A DNA stretch of 64,000 nt, taken from the NCBI GenBank assembly GCA_006247105.1, contig CM016927.1, forward strand, positions 1,054,001-1,118,000. Direction: 5' to 3'. Shown here piece after piece: positions 55,963 through 62,830 of the stretch. Under the pieces are notes generated by a model that did not search any database, was not told the DNA's origin, and saw nothing but the letters and a program-made list of their open reading frames with translations. The position numbers were made by a program, and so were the translations under genes. Positions within the stretch are counted from its first letter, which is position 1. Every line of letters begins with the position of its first letter. The DNA is from Giardia muris (Eukaryota; Fornicata; Diplomonadida; Hexamitidae).

Positions 55963-58900
55963 CGCTAAAGAACACTCTATCCATTGAGTTCTGGATGAGG
56001 TCCCAATCGGCGATAAGCCTCTGGTGCGTGAACGCAAGCTCCGCCATGCGCACGAAGATATCCGAGACGGAAAGCTCTTCTCCCACCTCATAGAGAAGGG
56101 TGTCGCCCACACACCTGATTAGGGTCACCACCGTCTGAAAAGCGGCGGTGACTAGCGCGTGGATCTTTATCTCGTAGCCATTCTTGAGTTTCACCCCATC
56201 CACTATCGCATTATCCGCGGGCATGACCCCCTGCAATACTTCCGGGCTGTTCTTTCGTACCCCAACCGAGATGTGAAGTTTCCCTCCGTATTTGTTCTGA
56301 AGGTGTACGCAAGTCCCGATACAACGAAGCCGTCCCTTGTCCATGATAGCGATGCGGTTACATAGCGCTTGGGCTTCGTCCATCGCGTGCGTAGTCAAGA
56401 GAATCGCACGTCCTGGGCGAACTTTAAGGATGACATTCCAAAGAAGCCTCTTCGACCCCGGATCAAGCCCCGTGCTCGGCTCATCAAGATAGAGGACGTA
56501 TGGAGAGCCGGTCAAGGCGATGGCGACCGAGAGACGGCGCTTCTGCCCGCCGGACAGAGACTTTACCATTACGTTCTCCTTCTCCAGAAGCCCAACCGCC
56601 CCCAGGAGGTCGTCCACATGCTGTTTCTTCTCACTCTTATCGATACTCTTTAGGTCGCAGAAGTACTCCAGGTGCTGGCGGCAAGTAAGGGTAGGGTAGA
56701 GCATATCAAACTGCGGGCAGATCCCGGTGACACTCTGAATGAATTTCTTATTGGCAGGGTCGACGAGGTTTTTCTGGTCGATGTACGCGTCTCCGCTTGT
56801 CGCCCGATGCAGGAGTGTCAGTATATTGATGGTTGTCGTTTTAGCAGCGCCGTTAGGCCCCAGCAGGCCAAGACACTCGCCCATCGCAACGGTGAACGAG
56901 ATTCCACGAACGGCGTGCTTTTCGGGCTGCTTAAAGCGTGCCGGATACGTCTTCGTCAGCCTAAGCGCCCGGATCACGATGGGCTTTCCATTGTAGCCTA
57001 CGTTATCAGTAAAGGCACGTAGACGCTCAGCCTTGACGTCGATGTCCTCCTCAGGCTCGGGCGACACCAACTCGTCAGTTCCATCTTGTGGAATCGCGCG
57101 TTGTGTATCCGTTAGTTGACCCTGAATCTGTGATGGTGCTTCATCACCCTTCTTCTGCGCTGGTGAACGCTCTGTATCCTGAAGCGCGCCAGTCCGTGGG
57201 ACAAAATTGGTCGAAGTGATGGCTTGCGGTTCTGCACGACGGCACATCAAAATGGGGTGCGTCACTGCCCATCCGACCGCGTAGCAGACTGATTTGGTCG
57301 TGAAATGCTTTGTTCGGGTGTTACGGATGCGGTCCACCTTATTGACGAGCGGAAAGAGGAAGAAGAGCCAATGGTTGGCTATCCCATTGCGCTTGGGCCA
57401 GACGAGGTCGAGGTACATTGCAAGTACGGCCATCAGGACAAGTGAGATAACAGACAGGAAGAACATCGGGAGGACCGAGGCTCCGACGTAGTACCTGCCA
57501 AGGTCTGTGCGCTTCGGGACGAAACTGAGGTCGGAGGCGTGAAGACTGAGTTCCGAGTTCTGGAGGACCGCCAGGCCTTGTAGCTGTGCCATAATCGCAC
57601 AAGGCCCGAAGAAGGGAACCAGCCCTAGCCAAGGAGAAAGGCTACGGTCGACCAGAGTGGGTGCCGCAAAGCCAATCGAGGCTATGAAGGTCCCAATCGA
57701 GATAACAAAGCTGAAGACTATGGCGACGAGAGCCGTCACACGCCCGCTCTCGGAGAACGCGGCGAAGAACGCGCTAAGAACGGGGACCGAGGCGGCCATG
57801 AGGAGCATCGTTGGTAACCAGACTAGAACGGTATTATCCTTGATGCCTTTAAGGTCTCCAGCTAAGGACAAAATGACGATGAGGGTCTCGACGCAGAGTG
57901 ACAAGAGGAAGTTGTAGGTGTAGTCTGCAAACCACTTGGAGGTATATCGCTGACCCATCATCGAATGGAGATGGACCAGCCCGGCACCCTTCTCCTCACA
58001 GGCCGTGTACACGAACAGGGGCGAGATGATATACGAGAGCAAGGGGATCAGCATGATCATAAGGAGGGGAGTGAAGGAGTCTGGGCCTTGGGCGGTCGAG
58101 GAAAGCTTCCAGAAGGCACCATAGTTCCCCATGACGTACGGTTGGTTGGTCTCGTTGAATGTGACGTCGTTCGCCCCGAGGATCGCATTGAATACCTGCT
58201 TCGTCATAGCACGAAGGAAGGATTGGAACATGACGTTCTGGAAGGAAAGAACCTTCGAATACGTCAAGTAACTGACCCGGAAGTCCTGGCCATTGCGGTG
58301 GAGGAACATGTCGTACCCAATATTAAGGGAGAGGGTCTTCTGGCCATTGACGAGAACGATAGACAACGGGTCTTCCTTGACAGTTGGGTGGAGACGCACG
58401 GCGAACGCCGGAAGGTCTGTCACAAAGTACGTCCTGACAAGCCTATTACGTAGGTCGACGACGACGCTTTCGTCACGTGGAGGGGCATCGCGGTATCTTT
58501 CCCAGGCTTTTCTGATATAAGACATAAGAAGCTTCTTCGTAGCTTCGTCACTTAAGCTGCTTGTATTGTCAATGGTTATGGTGTCTGAACTATTATAGAG
58601 CTGGTCAGCTAAGTTCTGATCAGTGAAGTCGGGGAAGGTGTAACCATTGACATACTCCACGAAGTTCTTGAAATAGGGGACTCCGACGTCGCTGTGCACG
58701 AGCGGCTCCGACTGGCTCGTCGACGGGTTCGTTTCGTACACACGCATCGTCGCTTCCGACAAGTCGGAGGATAAGGCTCGCATGGCATTCGTTGCACCAT
58801 CCGCATCCCAGAACTTGTACCCAATCCGGTTCAGGAGCGTGTCGTACGCCTTGGCGTTGGTCCCGTCGATGGTGTACGAGATGTTCGACTGCTCGATGCT

Positions 58901-59225: not shown

Positions 59226-59813
59226 ATGCCACCAAAACCCCCAAAGGAGGCCCCACCTCCCGAGCGCTTGGGCGACCTTCCCCAGCAAGGGTCTCATAAG
59301 TTCATCCACCAGAACGGGACCATCTACGAGGGGGAGTACAGCACCTTTGATGGACAATTCTATCGTCACGGTCGAGGACGACTCATCGAGAACCTATGCG
59401 TCCGCGACCCTGACGCCTGTCCCGGCTTCGATCCCGTCGAGCCTCCTCCCGGTGCTTGTCGTGCACAAATCTTCGATGGGTTCTGGGACAAAGACATCTT
59501 CGTCAAGGGTCGTGTGATTTACCCAGATGGTTCCGAGTATCTTGGAGAGATCACCCCCGACGGCGACTACGTCGACGGGGGGATGTACCGCTTCTCCTGC
59601 GGGTCCAAATGGATAGGCGCCTTCAAGGGTAACGAGATGCATGGCCCCGGATACTTTGTCGACACCGCGGGGACGGTATGGAAGGGGGAGATGAAGGGCA
59701 ACCATGCAGAGTCCTTGATCCGGGTTCTGGACTTTTCTCCACAAGAGCCCGATCCCTTACTGGAAAAGAACGGTGTAGAAGAGAACTATGACGTTAATCA
59801 AGACTCTGCCTGA
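59226..59813 (+). CDS. MORN-repeat protein (195 aa)
   Basis: Starts MPPKPPKEAPPPERLG. MORN repeats follow: GTIYEGEYSTFDGQFYRHGRGRL, a degenerate unit around IFDGFWDKDIFVKGRVIY, SEYLGEITPDGDYVDGG and KWIGAFKGNEMHGPGYFVD plus VWKGEMKGN. Spacing is irregular and an insertion containing CVRDPDACPGFDPVEPPPGAC sits between the first two. MORN proteins bind membranes or act as scaffolds and are common in flagellar and disc structures. The 3' end overlaps the convergent Dus1 gene by 16 bp. The longer frame from 59187 runs into ABCA and is rejected. Confidence 0.82.
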   Translation: MPPKPPKEAPPPERLGDLPQQGSHKFIHQNGTIYEGEYSTFDGQFYRHGRGRLIENLCVRDPDACPGFDPVEPPPGACRAQIFDGFWDKDIFVKGRVIYPDGSEYLGEITPDGDYVDGGMYRFSCGSKWIGAFKGNEMHGPGYFVDTAGTVWKGEMKGNHAESLIRVLDFSPQEPDPLLEKNGVEENYDVNQDSA

Positions 59814-61075
59814 CTCTCTACCGGCTCTGGGAGACAGCACCTTCCCTGAGTGAACCTTGCGCATAATTCCACTACAACAGCTTGAGCTCTTTCGAGATAT
59901 TCCACGAACGGTGTGAGGTTCTCGGTCAGACTCGTTCTTAGATCGACGTTTGCAGCCATCAACTCACGCCCAACAAGCCGCATCGTGTGTGAGACGATAT
60001 GACTGGGCGTAATGTACCCAATATGCGCTCGTGCAAGCTCAATGTACTCAAGGGCGAGGTAAATACGTTCAAGACGCCGTTCTATTGAATCTCCAATGGT
60101 AACTGTGATCGGGTGACTAGAAGACAAAGGTGGTGTCCATCCTTTGACGACCTCAGAATAAACCGGTGCTTCAAGATCAAAGGAAAGGAAAATAGAACTG
60201 GGCTTATAAGTGCAGGGGACGAGCGAGATGGTTTTAGAGGTTTTCTCCTCGGCCAGACGTAATTGTTCCTTCAAGTCGGAACTAAGAGTGGAACCATCAA
60301 CACCAGCCAAGCCTGCTACCGAATTATATAGAGCGGCGTTCTCAAGGATCTGACTTCCTGCAAGCGTCCCATCTGCTCTAGAAATGGCAAGAAGACGTTC
60401 ATGTGATTCTCGTGACCAAACTCCACCATTTGCAAAGAGAACCAAGGATGGGAACTGTCTTCGTAATTCCCCAAAGACCTCTCCAAGCATTTCCCAATTA
60501 GGAGGGCCAACGCCATTACCCGTGCGCTGTGTACGAAGTCGACCATGAAGGGTAAGCATATCAACGCCTATGTCCGCGATTTGCGTGCACATCTTCAGCG
60601 TCTCTTCTCTGGTTGGCCAAATGCGGGTTTTGACAGCCACATGATGTCTTCCATGTGCAATGGTGACGAGACGGCCAAGAACCTTCAAATATATGTCGGG
60701 TTTATCCATAAGCCAGGCACCATAGTGTCCACGTAACGCCACGGCTTGTGGACATCCCATATTCAATTCAACGATATCGAAACAATCACCAGCCTCCTGT
60801 GCTAATGAATCATACGCCATGGCCACTATAGCTGGGTCATGACCGGCTAATTGTAAGACTAGGGGACGATCACAATCCTTTCCCGTGTGTAATTCCGAGA
60901 TCAACGTCTTCCGAAGCTTCTCATTTGTTTGGAGCTGTGGTGCGTTGTACATCGGGGTCCAAGTGAGCTGCACACCATATCTGCGTACAAGGAGACGGTA
61001 GGGTAAGTCGGAACCGTCAACCATTGGGGCTAGGCCGCGACTAGGACGCCCCATGTCATTGTACCAGTTCCTCAT
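59798..61075 (-). CDS. DUS1: tRNA-dihydrouridine synthase, Dus1 type
   Basis: A 425-aa flavoprotein. The FMN-binding TIM barrel begins GLAPMVDGSDLPYRLLVRRYG. LVLQLAGHDPAIVAMA, VELNMGCPQAVALRGHYGAWL (with the catalytic Cys) and VAVKTRIW follow, with LTLHGRLRTQ and VLFANGGVWS later. RGHYGAWLMD is characteristic of the Dus1 subgroup (tRNA U16/U17). The C-terminal 150 residues are helical and end with a short cysteine-containing tail. The start codon is separated from the divergent RRP36 ATG by only 'aaattttt'. Confidence 0.92.
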   Translation of the reverse strand: MRNWYNDMGRPSRGLAPMVDGSDLPYRLLVRRYGVQLTWTPMYNAPQLQTNEKLRKTLISELHTGKDCDRPLVLQLAGHDPAIVAMAYDSLAQEAGDCFDIVELNMGCPQAVALRGHYGAWLMDKPDIYLKVLGRLVTIAHGRHHVAVKTRIWPTREETLKMCTQIADIGVDMLTLHGRLRTQRTGNGVGPPNWEMLGEVFGELRRQFPSLVLFANGGVWSRESHERLLAISRADGTLAGSQILENAALYNSVAGLAGVDGSTLSSDLKEQLRLAEEKTSKTISLVPCTYKPSSIFLSFDLEAPVYSEVVKGWTPPLSSSHPITVTIGDSIERRLERIYLALEYIELARAHIGYITPSHIVSHTMRLVGRELMAANVDLRTSLTENLTPFVEYLERAQAVVVELCARFTQGRCCLPEPVESQAES

Positions 61076-61083
61076 AAATTTTT
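61076..61083. promoter_or_regulatory. 8-bp divergent A/T spacer (Dus1 / RRP36)
   Basis: The whole intergenic sequence is 'aaattttt': eight A/T bases between CAT and ATG, an ideal compact bidirectional initiator by Giardia rules. Confidence 0.6.
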
Positions 61084-61653
61084 ATGCCATTGACTAATCC
61101 AACCTGTATTCTAACCACAACCATAGCCATAGAGGGGAAGCCTATGGAGGGGGAGGAGAAGGGACCTCGGGAGCATGCGGCCGATAGGCCCCGCCCGGTC
61201 ATCGGGGAGGGACACCCCCCAAAGAGGAGAAAGTCCTTTGACCCACGGTTCCAACCGCTTGAGGAGAGTGATGTCAAGTACTTCAGAAAGAACTATGCCT
61301 TTATAGGGGAACTTCGGCGACAGGAGCTGCAGAAGCACATGGCGCAGCTCAAGGAGATGGAGGCCGACCAGGAGAAGAAGAACTCTGATGAATGTAGGAA
61401 ACTGAAAGCTCAAGTCCTAAAGGAAAAACAGCGAGTTGGGGAGATGGATCGGAAACGTCTCGAGGTTGACCTTCGAGACCGCTTGGCTAGGGCGGAGCTT
61501 GATGCGGTTGCTCATGGGAAGAAACCTTATTATGTGAGAGATGACGATATCAGACGCCTGACAACCGCGATCCGATATACCCGACTGGCTGGAACCAAGA
61601 AGGGCGACCGCCTCCTCAACAAGGTCAACGAACGCAGGAGTAAACCGCCATGA
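61084..61653 (+). CDS. RRP36: rRNA-processing protein RRP36
   Basis: A 189-aa basic helical protein. RRKSFDPRFQPLEESDVKYFRKNYAFIGELRRQELQ matches the DPRFxxLxGxxxxxxFxxxYxFLxxxRxxE core of RRP36. It is followed by the coiled-coil KEKQRVGEMDRKRLEVDL and the conserved GKKPYYVRDDDIRRLTTAIRY (KxPYFLKKSE in other eukaryotes), then a basic C-terminus. RRP36 is part of the SSU processome and acts in early 18S rRNA processing. The first ATG is used; a second in-frame ATG (MEGEEKG) lies 20 codons on. The stop is in the A/T-rich leader of the Hsp90 C-half gene. Confidence 0.88.
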   Translation: MPLTNPTCILTTTIAIEGKPMEGEEKGPREHAADRPRPVIGEGHPPKRRKSFDPRFQPLEESDVKYFRKNYAFIGELRRQELQKHMAQLKEMEADQEKKNSDECRKLKAQVLKEKQRVGEMDRKRLEVDLRDRLARAELDAVAHGKKPYYVRDDDIRRLTTAIRYTRLAGTKKGDRLLNKVNERRSKPP

Positions 61654-61755
61654 TTGATTGATCTCAAATGATCAATTATCAATCTACTTTCATGATGTAC
61701 GGGGAAGAGAAAAAATCAGCGGCTGACGCGCAGGACCATCTGGACTAACACGCAG
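61654..61755 (+). promoter_or_regulatory. Leader and trans-intron acceptor half of HSPC
   Basis: About 100 bp between the RRP36 stop and the Hsp90 exon. The left part is A/T-rich (ctcaaatgatcaattatcaatctacttt) and is the probable promoter. It contains an inverted repeat GATTGAT/ATCAATC (61656-61662 and 61678-61684). The right part is the downstream half of a split intron, ending in the Giardia branch/acceptor signature ACTAACACGCAG (61744-61755). A second, weaker CTGACGCGCAG lies at 61723-61733. In G. intestinalis this half pairs with the HSPN transcript; complementarity cannot be tested here because HSPN is outside the window. Confidence 0.75.
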
Positions 61756-62830
61756 CTTCATCACGGACGAGTGTACGGACATCGTGCCCGACTGGCTTAC
61801 GTTCCTCAAGGGTGTCGTCGACTGCGACGACCTCCCTCTGAACATCTCGCGCGAGATGCTCCAGAAGAACCGCATCGTCAACACGATCCGCAAGAACATC
61901 ATCAACAAGGCCCTCAAGCTCTTCAAGGACCTCGAGGAGGACAAGGAGAAGTACGAGACGTTCCTCAAGCAGTTCGGGAAGTCCATCAAGCTCGGAATCC
62001 ACGAGGACTCGGACAACCGCCAGAAGCTTGCAAAGCTCCTTCGCTACTACTCGACCAAGTCGAAGGACAAGCGCACGTCTCTCGATGACTACGTGACGCG
62101 GATGGGCGAGAGCCAGAAGTCGATCTACTACATCACAGGCGACTCTCTTGACGCACTCCGCGAGTCTCCCTTCCTCGAGCGCTTCAACAAGCGTGGGATC
62201 GAGGTCCTCCTCATGGACGAGGCGATCGACGAGTACATGACGTCCTCTCTCAAGGAGTTCGACGGGAAGCAGCTGAAGTGCATCACGAAGGATGGGATTG
62301 ACCTCGAGATGACGGAGGACGAGAAGAAGGCTCAGGAGGAGAAGAAGGAGCGTTACTCGAAGCTTTGCAAGTACATGAAGGAGGTCCTTGGCGACAAGGT
62401 CGAGGGCGTACGTGTCGGATGTGACCGTCTGGTTGACACCCCGTGCGTCCTCGTCACTGCCGAGTGGGGATGGACCGCGACGATGTCGAAGATCATGAAG
62501 CACCAGGCCCTTCGCGATGACACGCTCGGAAGCGTCATGGCGGGCAAGAAGACGTTGGAACTCAACCCTGATAGCCCGATCATCGCCAACCTGGCCACGA
62601 AGCTCGACGAGGACTCCGAGAACTTGTACGTCAAAGACATCACGACCCTCCTCTTCGAGACAGCGTTGATCCAGAGCGGGTTCGACATCGAGGATCCCAC
62701 GACCTTCGCGAGGCGCATTCACGCCATGGTCCGCGCCAGCCTCGGAGACGACGGGGCAGCTCCCGCGGCCGAAGACTTGCCTCCTCTCGACGACTGCAAC
62801 GACGAGGATGATGTTGACGAAGTTGACTGA
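61756..62830 (+). CDS. HSPC: Cytosolic Hsp90 C-terminal half exon (HSPC), joined by trans-splicing
   Basis: Codes for the last 357 residues of Hsp90 and nothing before. After one phase base the frame reads FITDECTDIVPDWLTFLKGV, equivalent to [21 protein letters not shown] in other Hsp90s. LPLNISREMLQ, KLGIHEDSDNRQKL, YYITGDSLDAL, EGVRVGCDRLVDTPCVLVT, TAEWGWTATMSKIMKHQAL and a C-terminal acidic tail ending DEVD follow. There is no ATG in frame upstream, and an in-frame TGA lies at 61724-61726, so the N-terminal ATPase and middle domain must come from another transcript. This is the arrangement known in G. intestinalis, where HSPN and HSPC RNAs are spliced in trans. The first ORF-like start (GTG 61784) is an artefact. 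A long antisense frame covers it and is not coding. Confidence 0.93.

Follow-up and report, generated by a model that had tools for sequence, protein, structure and literature searches.

A split Hsp90 gene in Giardia muris, with one HspC acceptor locus and two HspN donor copies

How does Giardia muris make a complete Hsp90 if an exon near the end of the stretch studied here encodes only the C-terminal half of the protein and has no start codon at its 5' end? This stretch, called the window below, is the 64-kb segment C3:1054001-1118000, where C3 is one of the 52 contigs (9,737,486 bases) of the genome that we searched. The window almost certainly contains the HspC acceptor locus of a trans-spliced, split Hsp90 gene: both halves, the splice signals, the reading frame, the half-intron pairing, the processing motif and two donor loci are all present in this genome. 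The Hsp90 split is an instance of known Giardia trans-splicing, and its conservation in G. muris was already stated in the text of Xu et al. (2020). What goes beyond this is that there are two HspN donors for a single HspC, and that donors lie in duplications with ends bounded by the processing motif.

An Hsp90 exon behind an acceptor

The features of the window considered here are given in window coordinates.

61144..61653, plus strand: RRP36-like rRNA biogenesis gene, the upstream neighbour (169 codons, ATG and TGA checked)
61654..61755, plus strand: spacer of 102 nt, in which the HspC pre-mRNA has its 3' half-intron
61710..61715, plus strand: AAAAAA run immediately 5' of the pairing helix, where the HspC pre-mRNA is proposed to start
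61717..61732, plus strand: HspC pairing segment CAGCGGCTGACGCGCA; its counterpart in the HspN half-intron is TGTGCGTCAGCCGCTG
61744..61755, plus strand: acceptor ACTAACACGCAG, with the branch point sequence merged with the 3' splice site; splice after 61755
61756..62830, plus strand: HspC exon, i.e. C (third base of the junction valine), 357 codons (61757-62827) and TGA (62828-62830)

An initial reading made from the sequence only had proposed a 357-codon exon for the C-terminal half of Hsp90 behind an acceptor, and this was borne out by a base-by-base check and by the match to Pfam PF00183 (475 bits against a cut-off of 24.4; profile positions 163-499 of 518). The exon codes for the Hsp90 middle and C-terminal domains, and solved Hsp90 structures, e.g. 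3hjc, align with it starting at its first residue. The in-frame stop that had been placed shortly upstream of the acceptor is the TGA at 61724-61726, 29 nt before the exon, and none of the 10 codons from 61727 is ATG. The accompanying statement that there is no in-frame ATG holds for the 5' end of the exon and fails inside it, where ATGs occur from codon 34 on.

The acceptor ACTAACACGCAG agrees with the G. lamblia consensus CT[AG]ACACACAG (PMC5224939), in that its branch point adjoins the 3' splice site, and has G at one position as against A in that consensus. The form CTAACACGCAG occurs once in the window, both strands counted, and all exact donor partners in the G. muris genome use acceptor sites of this form. 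Across the 9.74-Mb genome, the pattern CTRACACRCAG has nine matches versus five for a reversed control pattern, so that the acceptor motif alone is weak and the case is carried by the partner half and the pairing. Since Giardia gene starts appear to be A-rich, the A-run at 61710-61715 is a candidate initiation site; A enrichment upstream of start codons has been reported for G. muris (PMC7641422). By eye, TGATTGATC-like repeats can be seen both before HspC (61650-61685 in the window) and ahead of the C4 copy of HspN, possibly a promoter element shared by the two.

An N-terminal half directly upstream would speak against a split gene; that place is taken instead, on the same strand, by the RRP36 homologue, whose open frame 61078-61653 matches PF06102 with E 3.4e-22. 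A dihydrouridine synthase gene (PF01207) is a further neighbour, at 59798-61081 on the minus strand.

The partner half and the junction

A profile search of the genome with PF00183 gave three candidates and three matches: one HspC, on C3, and two HspN, on the plus strand of C1 and the minus strand of C4. A contiguous full-length Hsp90 gene, which would contradict the split, was not found in this genome-wide search. The sequence-only reading had predicted an N-terminal half elsewhere that ends in GT ahead of a Giardia 5' splice site, and HspN has this structure. Its exon ends CTC ATG GTC AAG AAG GT|GTATGTGTGTGCGTCAGCCGCTG, with the donor boundary AAG AAG GT|GTATGTGTGTGCG, and the 5' splice site GTATGT(T) is present in both copies as GT|GTATGTGTG. 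The exon end ...AAGAAGGT is the sequence to be joined with position 61756. After the donor comes the processing motif, TCCTTTACTCAA on C4 and TCCTTTACTTAA on C1; the C1 variant remains within the consensus given by Hudson (2012), CCTTYNHTHAA.

When HspN and HspC were joined in a script, the splice proposed at 61755/61756 completed the junction valine (GT|C) and restored KKV-FITDECTD in frame, the junction reading KLMVKKVFITDECTD. The joined Hsp90 has 699 residues, 342 including the junction valine plus 357. HspN is identical over its length to an annotated protein, 'heat shock protein 90, partial [Giardia muris]', of 342 residues, which ends at the junction valine and occurs on two contigs; the public annotation thus seems to carry both HspN copies already. 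From the junction to the first internal Met of HspC there are 33 residues, FITDECTDIVPDWLTFLKGVVDCDDLPLNISRE. For G. lamblia, a junctional sequence of 33 residues with the peptide GVVDCDDLPLNISRE has been described (PMC4006730). The equal count before the internal Met puts the split at the same place in the two species, and the suggestion of a Giardia species with a conserved split position therefore holds, the species being G. muris.

Pairing of the half-introns

It had further been suggested that the two half-introns might be complementary within 61654-61743. With the donor half-intron taken as 45 nt, up to position 9 of the processing motif, a helix forms at 61717-61732, with 16 uninterrupted pairs that include one G-U and a run of 13 Watson-Crick pairs. 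On neither strand of the 64-kb window does the donor have another Watson-Crick match as long as this 13-pair core, the next being 11; with G-U pairs allowed, a second 16-pair run appears on the minus strand at 57095. By duplex energy the HspC site ranks second among 2556 windows of 100 nt, an effect of the GU-rich donor. Over nine acceptor-like sites in the genome, HspC is the best partner for HspN, at -44.8 versus -35.8 kcal/mol for the next. Duplex energy was rejected as a sole test of pairing, because GU-rich donors score well in many places.

Proposed mechanism and alternatives

By analogy with experiments in G. lamblia, HspN (from C4 and C1) and HspC (from C3) would be transcribed separately, and the HspN RNA would be cut at the 12-nt motif downstream of its half-intron. 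The 16-bp pairing of the half-introns may then bring GT|GTATGT near the acceptor ACTAACACGCAG, where the spliceosome would join ...AAG AAG GT to C TTC ATC to give the 699-residue Hsp90.

Two other explanations deserve weighing. HspC might be translated alone from the ATG at codon 34, the halves acting as two unspliced polypeptides; such an ATG does exist, and the predicted HspC reading frame of G. lamblia should start at the equivalent Met, judging from the 33-residue junction there. We nevertheless consider separate translation very improbable, as the 33 residues preceding the internal ATG are conserved among Hsp90s and part of them has been sequenced as the junction peptide in G. lamblia (PMC4006730), and as the splice signals and the pairing would be left without purpose. 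Still less probable, in our judgement, is an assembly break or pseudogene, i.e. a contiguous Hsp90 gene split by misassembly. The donor copies share an exact repeat of 1074 bp, a type of sequence able to mislead assembly, but an intact RRP36 homologue precedes HspC, the two HspN copies differ in their flanks on both sides, the published assembly was built from PacBio reads and corrected with Illumina data (PMC7641422), and the Giardia-like proteins P0001 and P0124 show the same split. Trans-splicing of HspN to HspC remains our reading of the locus in what follows.

Other trans-introns and common donor elements

Other trans-introns of the genome can be rebuilt by the same rule as Hsp90. The first DHC-beta donor, present in two copies on C1, joins the exon at C5:562671, and the join links positions 1-262 of the dynein stalk domain MT to positions 264-340. 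At DHC-beta intron 2, the C5 donor at 565051 joins the acceptor at C1:382868 (minus strand) in frame, with 15 pairs. For DHC-gamma, the donor on C2 near 908534 and the acceptor at C3:432595 can be joined in frame only when the intron is read as AT-AC, and the product is VAM-MVPD. Over the same nine acceptor-like sites, duplex energy put the right partner first for two of the four donors (HspN and the C5 dynein donor), second for DHC-gamma and third for the first DHC-beta donor; for these last two, the partners were chosen from the reading frame and not from the pairing.

All four distinct donors have a 14-nt GU element, TGTGTGTTGTGTGT, just before the processing motif. A composite pattern built from three of them, TGTKGTGTGTN{0,12}CCTTYNHTHAA, has six matches in the genome versus none for its control; all six are donor loci, and they include the DHC-gamma donor, which had not yet been recognised at that point. 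For p68, no assignable donor was found in the genome pattern searches. An acceptor of the form CTAACACGCAG at C2:1926592 (minus strand), possibly that of p68, is preceded by TGTAAAGGA, which could pair with a processing motif.

Doubled donors

Duplication affects two of the four donors identified, and in each case it ends within the 3'-processing motif. The HspN copy on C1 (2706172-2707245) equals the C4 copy at 1074 of 1074 positions. The identical stretch begins with AAAAATGCC, 4 nt upstream of the ATG, and runs into the motif as far as TCCTTTACT. At the following base there is T in place of C, after which AA matches again; identity therefore reaches motif position 9, or position 12 if one mismatch is allowed. 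The flanks of the two copies are unrelated on both sides. The first DHC-beta donor lies within a duplication of 8764 bp (C1:1947749-1956512 and C1:2020447-2029210, 4 differences) that holds several open frames, and here identity includes all of TCCTTTACTCAA and goes no further. One left end of this dynein block lies 17 nt after a tRNA-Glu gene. Among the nine exact CTRACACRCAG sites no duplicate acceptor was seen, since by eye each is followed by a different exon.

The C1 copy of HspN keeps its reading frame, its splice site, its pairing segment and a consensus-fitting motif, behind a 5' flank unlike that of the C4 copy. Both donors may be used, and the doubling might increase the supply of HspN. 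This is the scarcer half in G. lamblia, where HspC transcripts were reported to be 15-fold more abundant than those of HspN (PMC4006730). HspN may therefore limit supply in that species, and a second copy would be of help provided that G. muris has the same scarcity. In G. lamblia the gene for RFC subunit 5 follows HspN (PMC3510501); a scan of nine neighbouring frames for an RFC domain, as a synteny mark of the older HspN copy, gave none.

How the donor copies arose

The C1 copy of HspN could be a retrocopy, i.e. a half-transcript cleaved at the motif, reverse transcribed and inserted between two genes; we regard this as possible and lean somewhat against it. Its identity with the C4 copy runs from AAAAATG, as expected of a Giardia mRNA start, to positions 9-12 of the cleavage motif, between unrelated flanks. 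Donor precursors in G. lamblia are cleaved at the processing motif (PMC3510501), and the copy limits, which agree with the ends predicted for the donor RNA, would favour an RNA route. The RNA end UUUACU would also match TTTACT at the target, where priming might have occurred. Against this, the C1 copy has no adjacent target-site duplication, only a 7-bp match 36 nt leftward; the genome has no RVT_1 matches, although telomerase or divergent forms could escape such a search; and retrotransposon sequences are described as 'overall very few' in G. muris (PMC7641422). The second duplicated donor, moreover, sits in a multi-frame block that ends at the same motif, and since this dynein block is larger than one transcript needs, such an end does not need RNA. 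Retrocopying as the single cause of both duplications was rejected because the dynein block spans 8764 bp with several open frames.

It seems to us an even call whether, instead, both duplications were DNA insertions, with right ends set by TTTACT/AGTAAA microhomology with a convergent gene end at the target. Read in reverse complement, the processing motif includes the poly(A) signal of Giardia, given as AGURAA (PMC9014877). At three of the four doubled-donor copies, the stop of a long convergent frame on the opposite strand and its AGTAAA overlap the motif.

C4:1046978-1046989: processing motif overlapped by convergent stop and AGTAAA
C1:2707237-2707248: processing motif overlapped by convergent stop and AGTAAA
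C1:2029199-2029210: processing motif overlapped by convergent stop and AGTAAA

One stretch of DNA may therefore end transcripts in both directions, and TTTACT at the end of a target gene offers microhomology. Assuming that MEPHLPP is the start of the flanking kinase, the C1 site would be left with a spacer of some 32 nt by count once the insert is taken out, compared with a reported G. muris median of 37 (PMC7641422). The gene that adjoins the C1 copy is of the kinase-ankyrin type, and NEK kinase-ankyrin genes have been linked to rearrangements in G. muris (PMC7641422). Yet microhomology leaves unexplained why the left limit of HspN falls 4 nt before the ATG, none is visible by eye at the left junctions, and at dynein block a no convergent frame ends. 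Targets of the TTTACT type are also not common, since only 3 of the 39 ORFs of the window have AGTAAA or TAAGTRAA at the stop; AGTRAA between 2 nt upstream and about 25 nt downstream of the stop occurs at 6 of 39, as against 0.8% of random 30-nt windows. A search for an empty paralogous C1 site with the right flank (455 bp) gave only the site itself.

Implications

In G. muris the Hsp90 halves are spread over large contigs of 1.3, 1.3 and 2.8 Mb that probably belong to different chromosomes; the arrangement of G. lamblia, with both halves on a single chromosome, therefore does not seem to be necessary. With its doubled donors, this genome provides a natural case of one acceptor with two donor loci, and two recent duplications that end in the processing motif bear on how Giardia genes became split.

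A broader conjecture, which we think unlikely, is that the 5' halves of G. muris split genes are copied as units bounded by their own processing motif, at least one of them via cleaved donor RNA, while acceptors stay single; extra donors on other chromosomes would offset the scarce half, and the same route could have created split genes. If so, a split gene would uncouple the copy numbers of its halves, several donors could feed one acceptor, and copying of this kind could have seeded the free-standing 5' halves from which split genes arose.

Comparison with relatives and known systems

Among 10 related proteins from two homology searches, the junction is unbroken in seven (P0002-P0005, P0122, P0123 and P0126), and the other three are split halves. 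KLMVKKVFITDECTD is contiguous and identical in P0002, P0003, P0122 and P0126 (67-73% identity), and the stretch is contiguous with substitutions in P0123, P0004 and P0005; the split thus looks derived within Giardia. The nearer unbroken relatives, at 67-73% identity, are presumably diplomonads.

The split halves are P0001 (90% identity to HspC), P0124 (80% to HspN) and P0121. P0001 reads FQLTHR before FITDE, which would be expected from CTAACACACAGG, and P0124 reads KKV-YVMFVCCMCARLLYSN, which would be expected from GTATGT...TCCTTTACTCAA. Back-translated, the half-introns of P0124 and P0001 are compatible with pairing over 20 nt, an extent reached in 26 of 2000 shuffles, which is suggestive only of an ability to pair.

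Literature searches, covering titles and the starts of abstracts, gave no report of a second HspN, of Giardia retrocopies or of doubled donors. Roy (2012) reportedly described the trans-introns of Giardia dynein heavy chain genes. According to Xu et al. (2020, PMC7641422), the G. muris homologues of all four trans-spliced G. intestinalis genes keep the splicing motifs and the cleavage motif. The terms hsp90, hsp and heat shock do not occur in the main text of that paper, and doubled donors are not mentioned in its main-text passages on duplication (12 of 14 places).

In G. lamblia (G. intestinalis), Hsp90 is made from HspN (GL50803_98054) and HspC (GL50803_13864), and the protein and the junction are the same as in G. 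muris. The two species also share the extended GTATGT donor, the CT[AG]ACAC.CAG acceptor, the half-intron pairing and TCCTTTACTCAA after the donor. In G. lamblia, 777 kb of chromosome 5 separate the halves, which have 26 nt of complementarity (PMC8494341), whereas in G. muris HspC is on C3, HspN is doubled on C4 and C1, and the uninterrupted pairing is 16 bp. Of the dynein trans-introns described in Giardia (PMC5224939), the two of DHC-beta and the one of DHC-gamma can also be read in G. muris; unlike in the known cases, the first DHC-beta donor of G. muris is duplicated, within its 8764-bp block.
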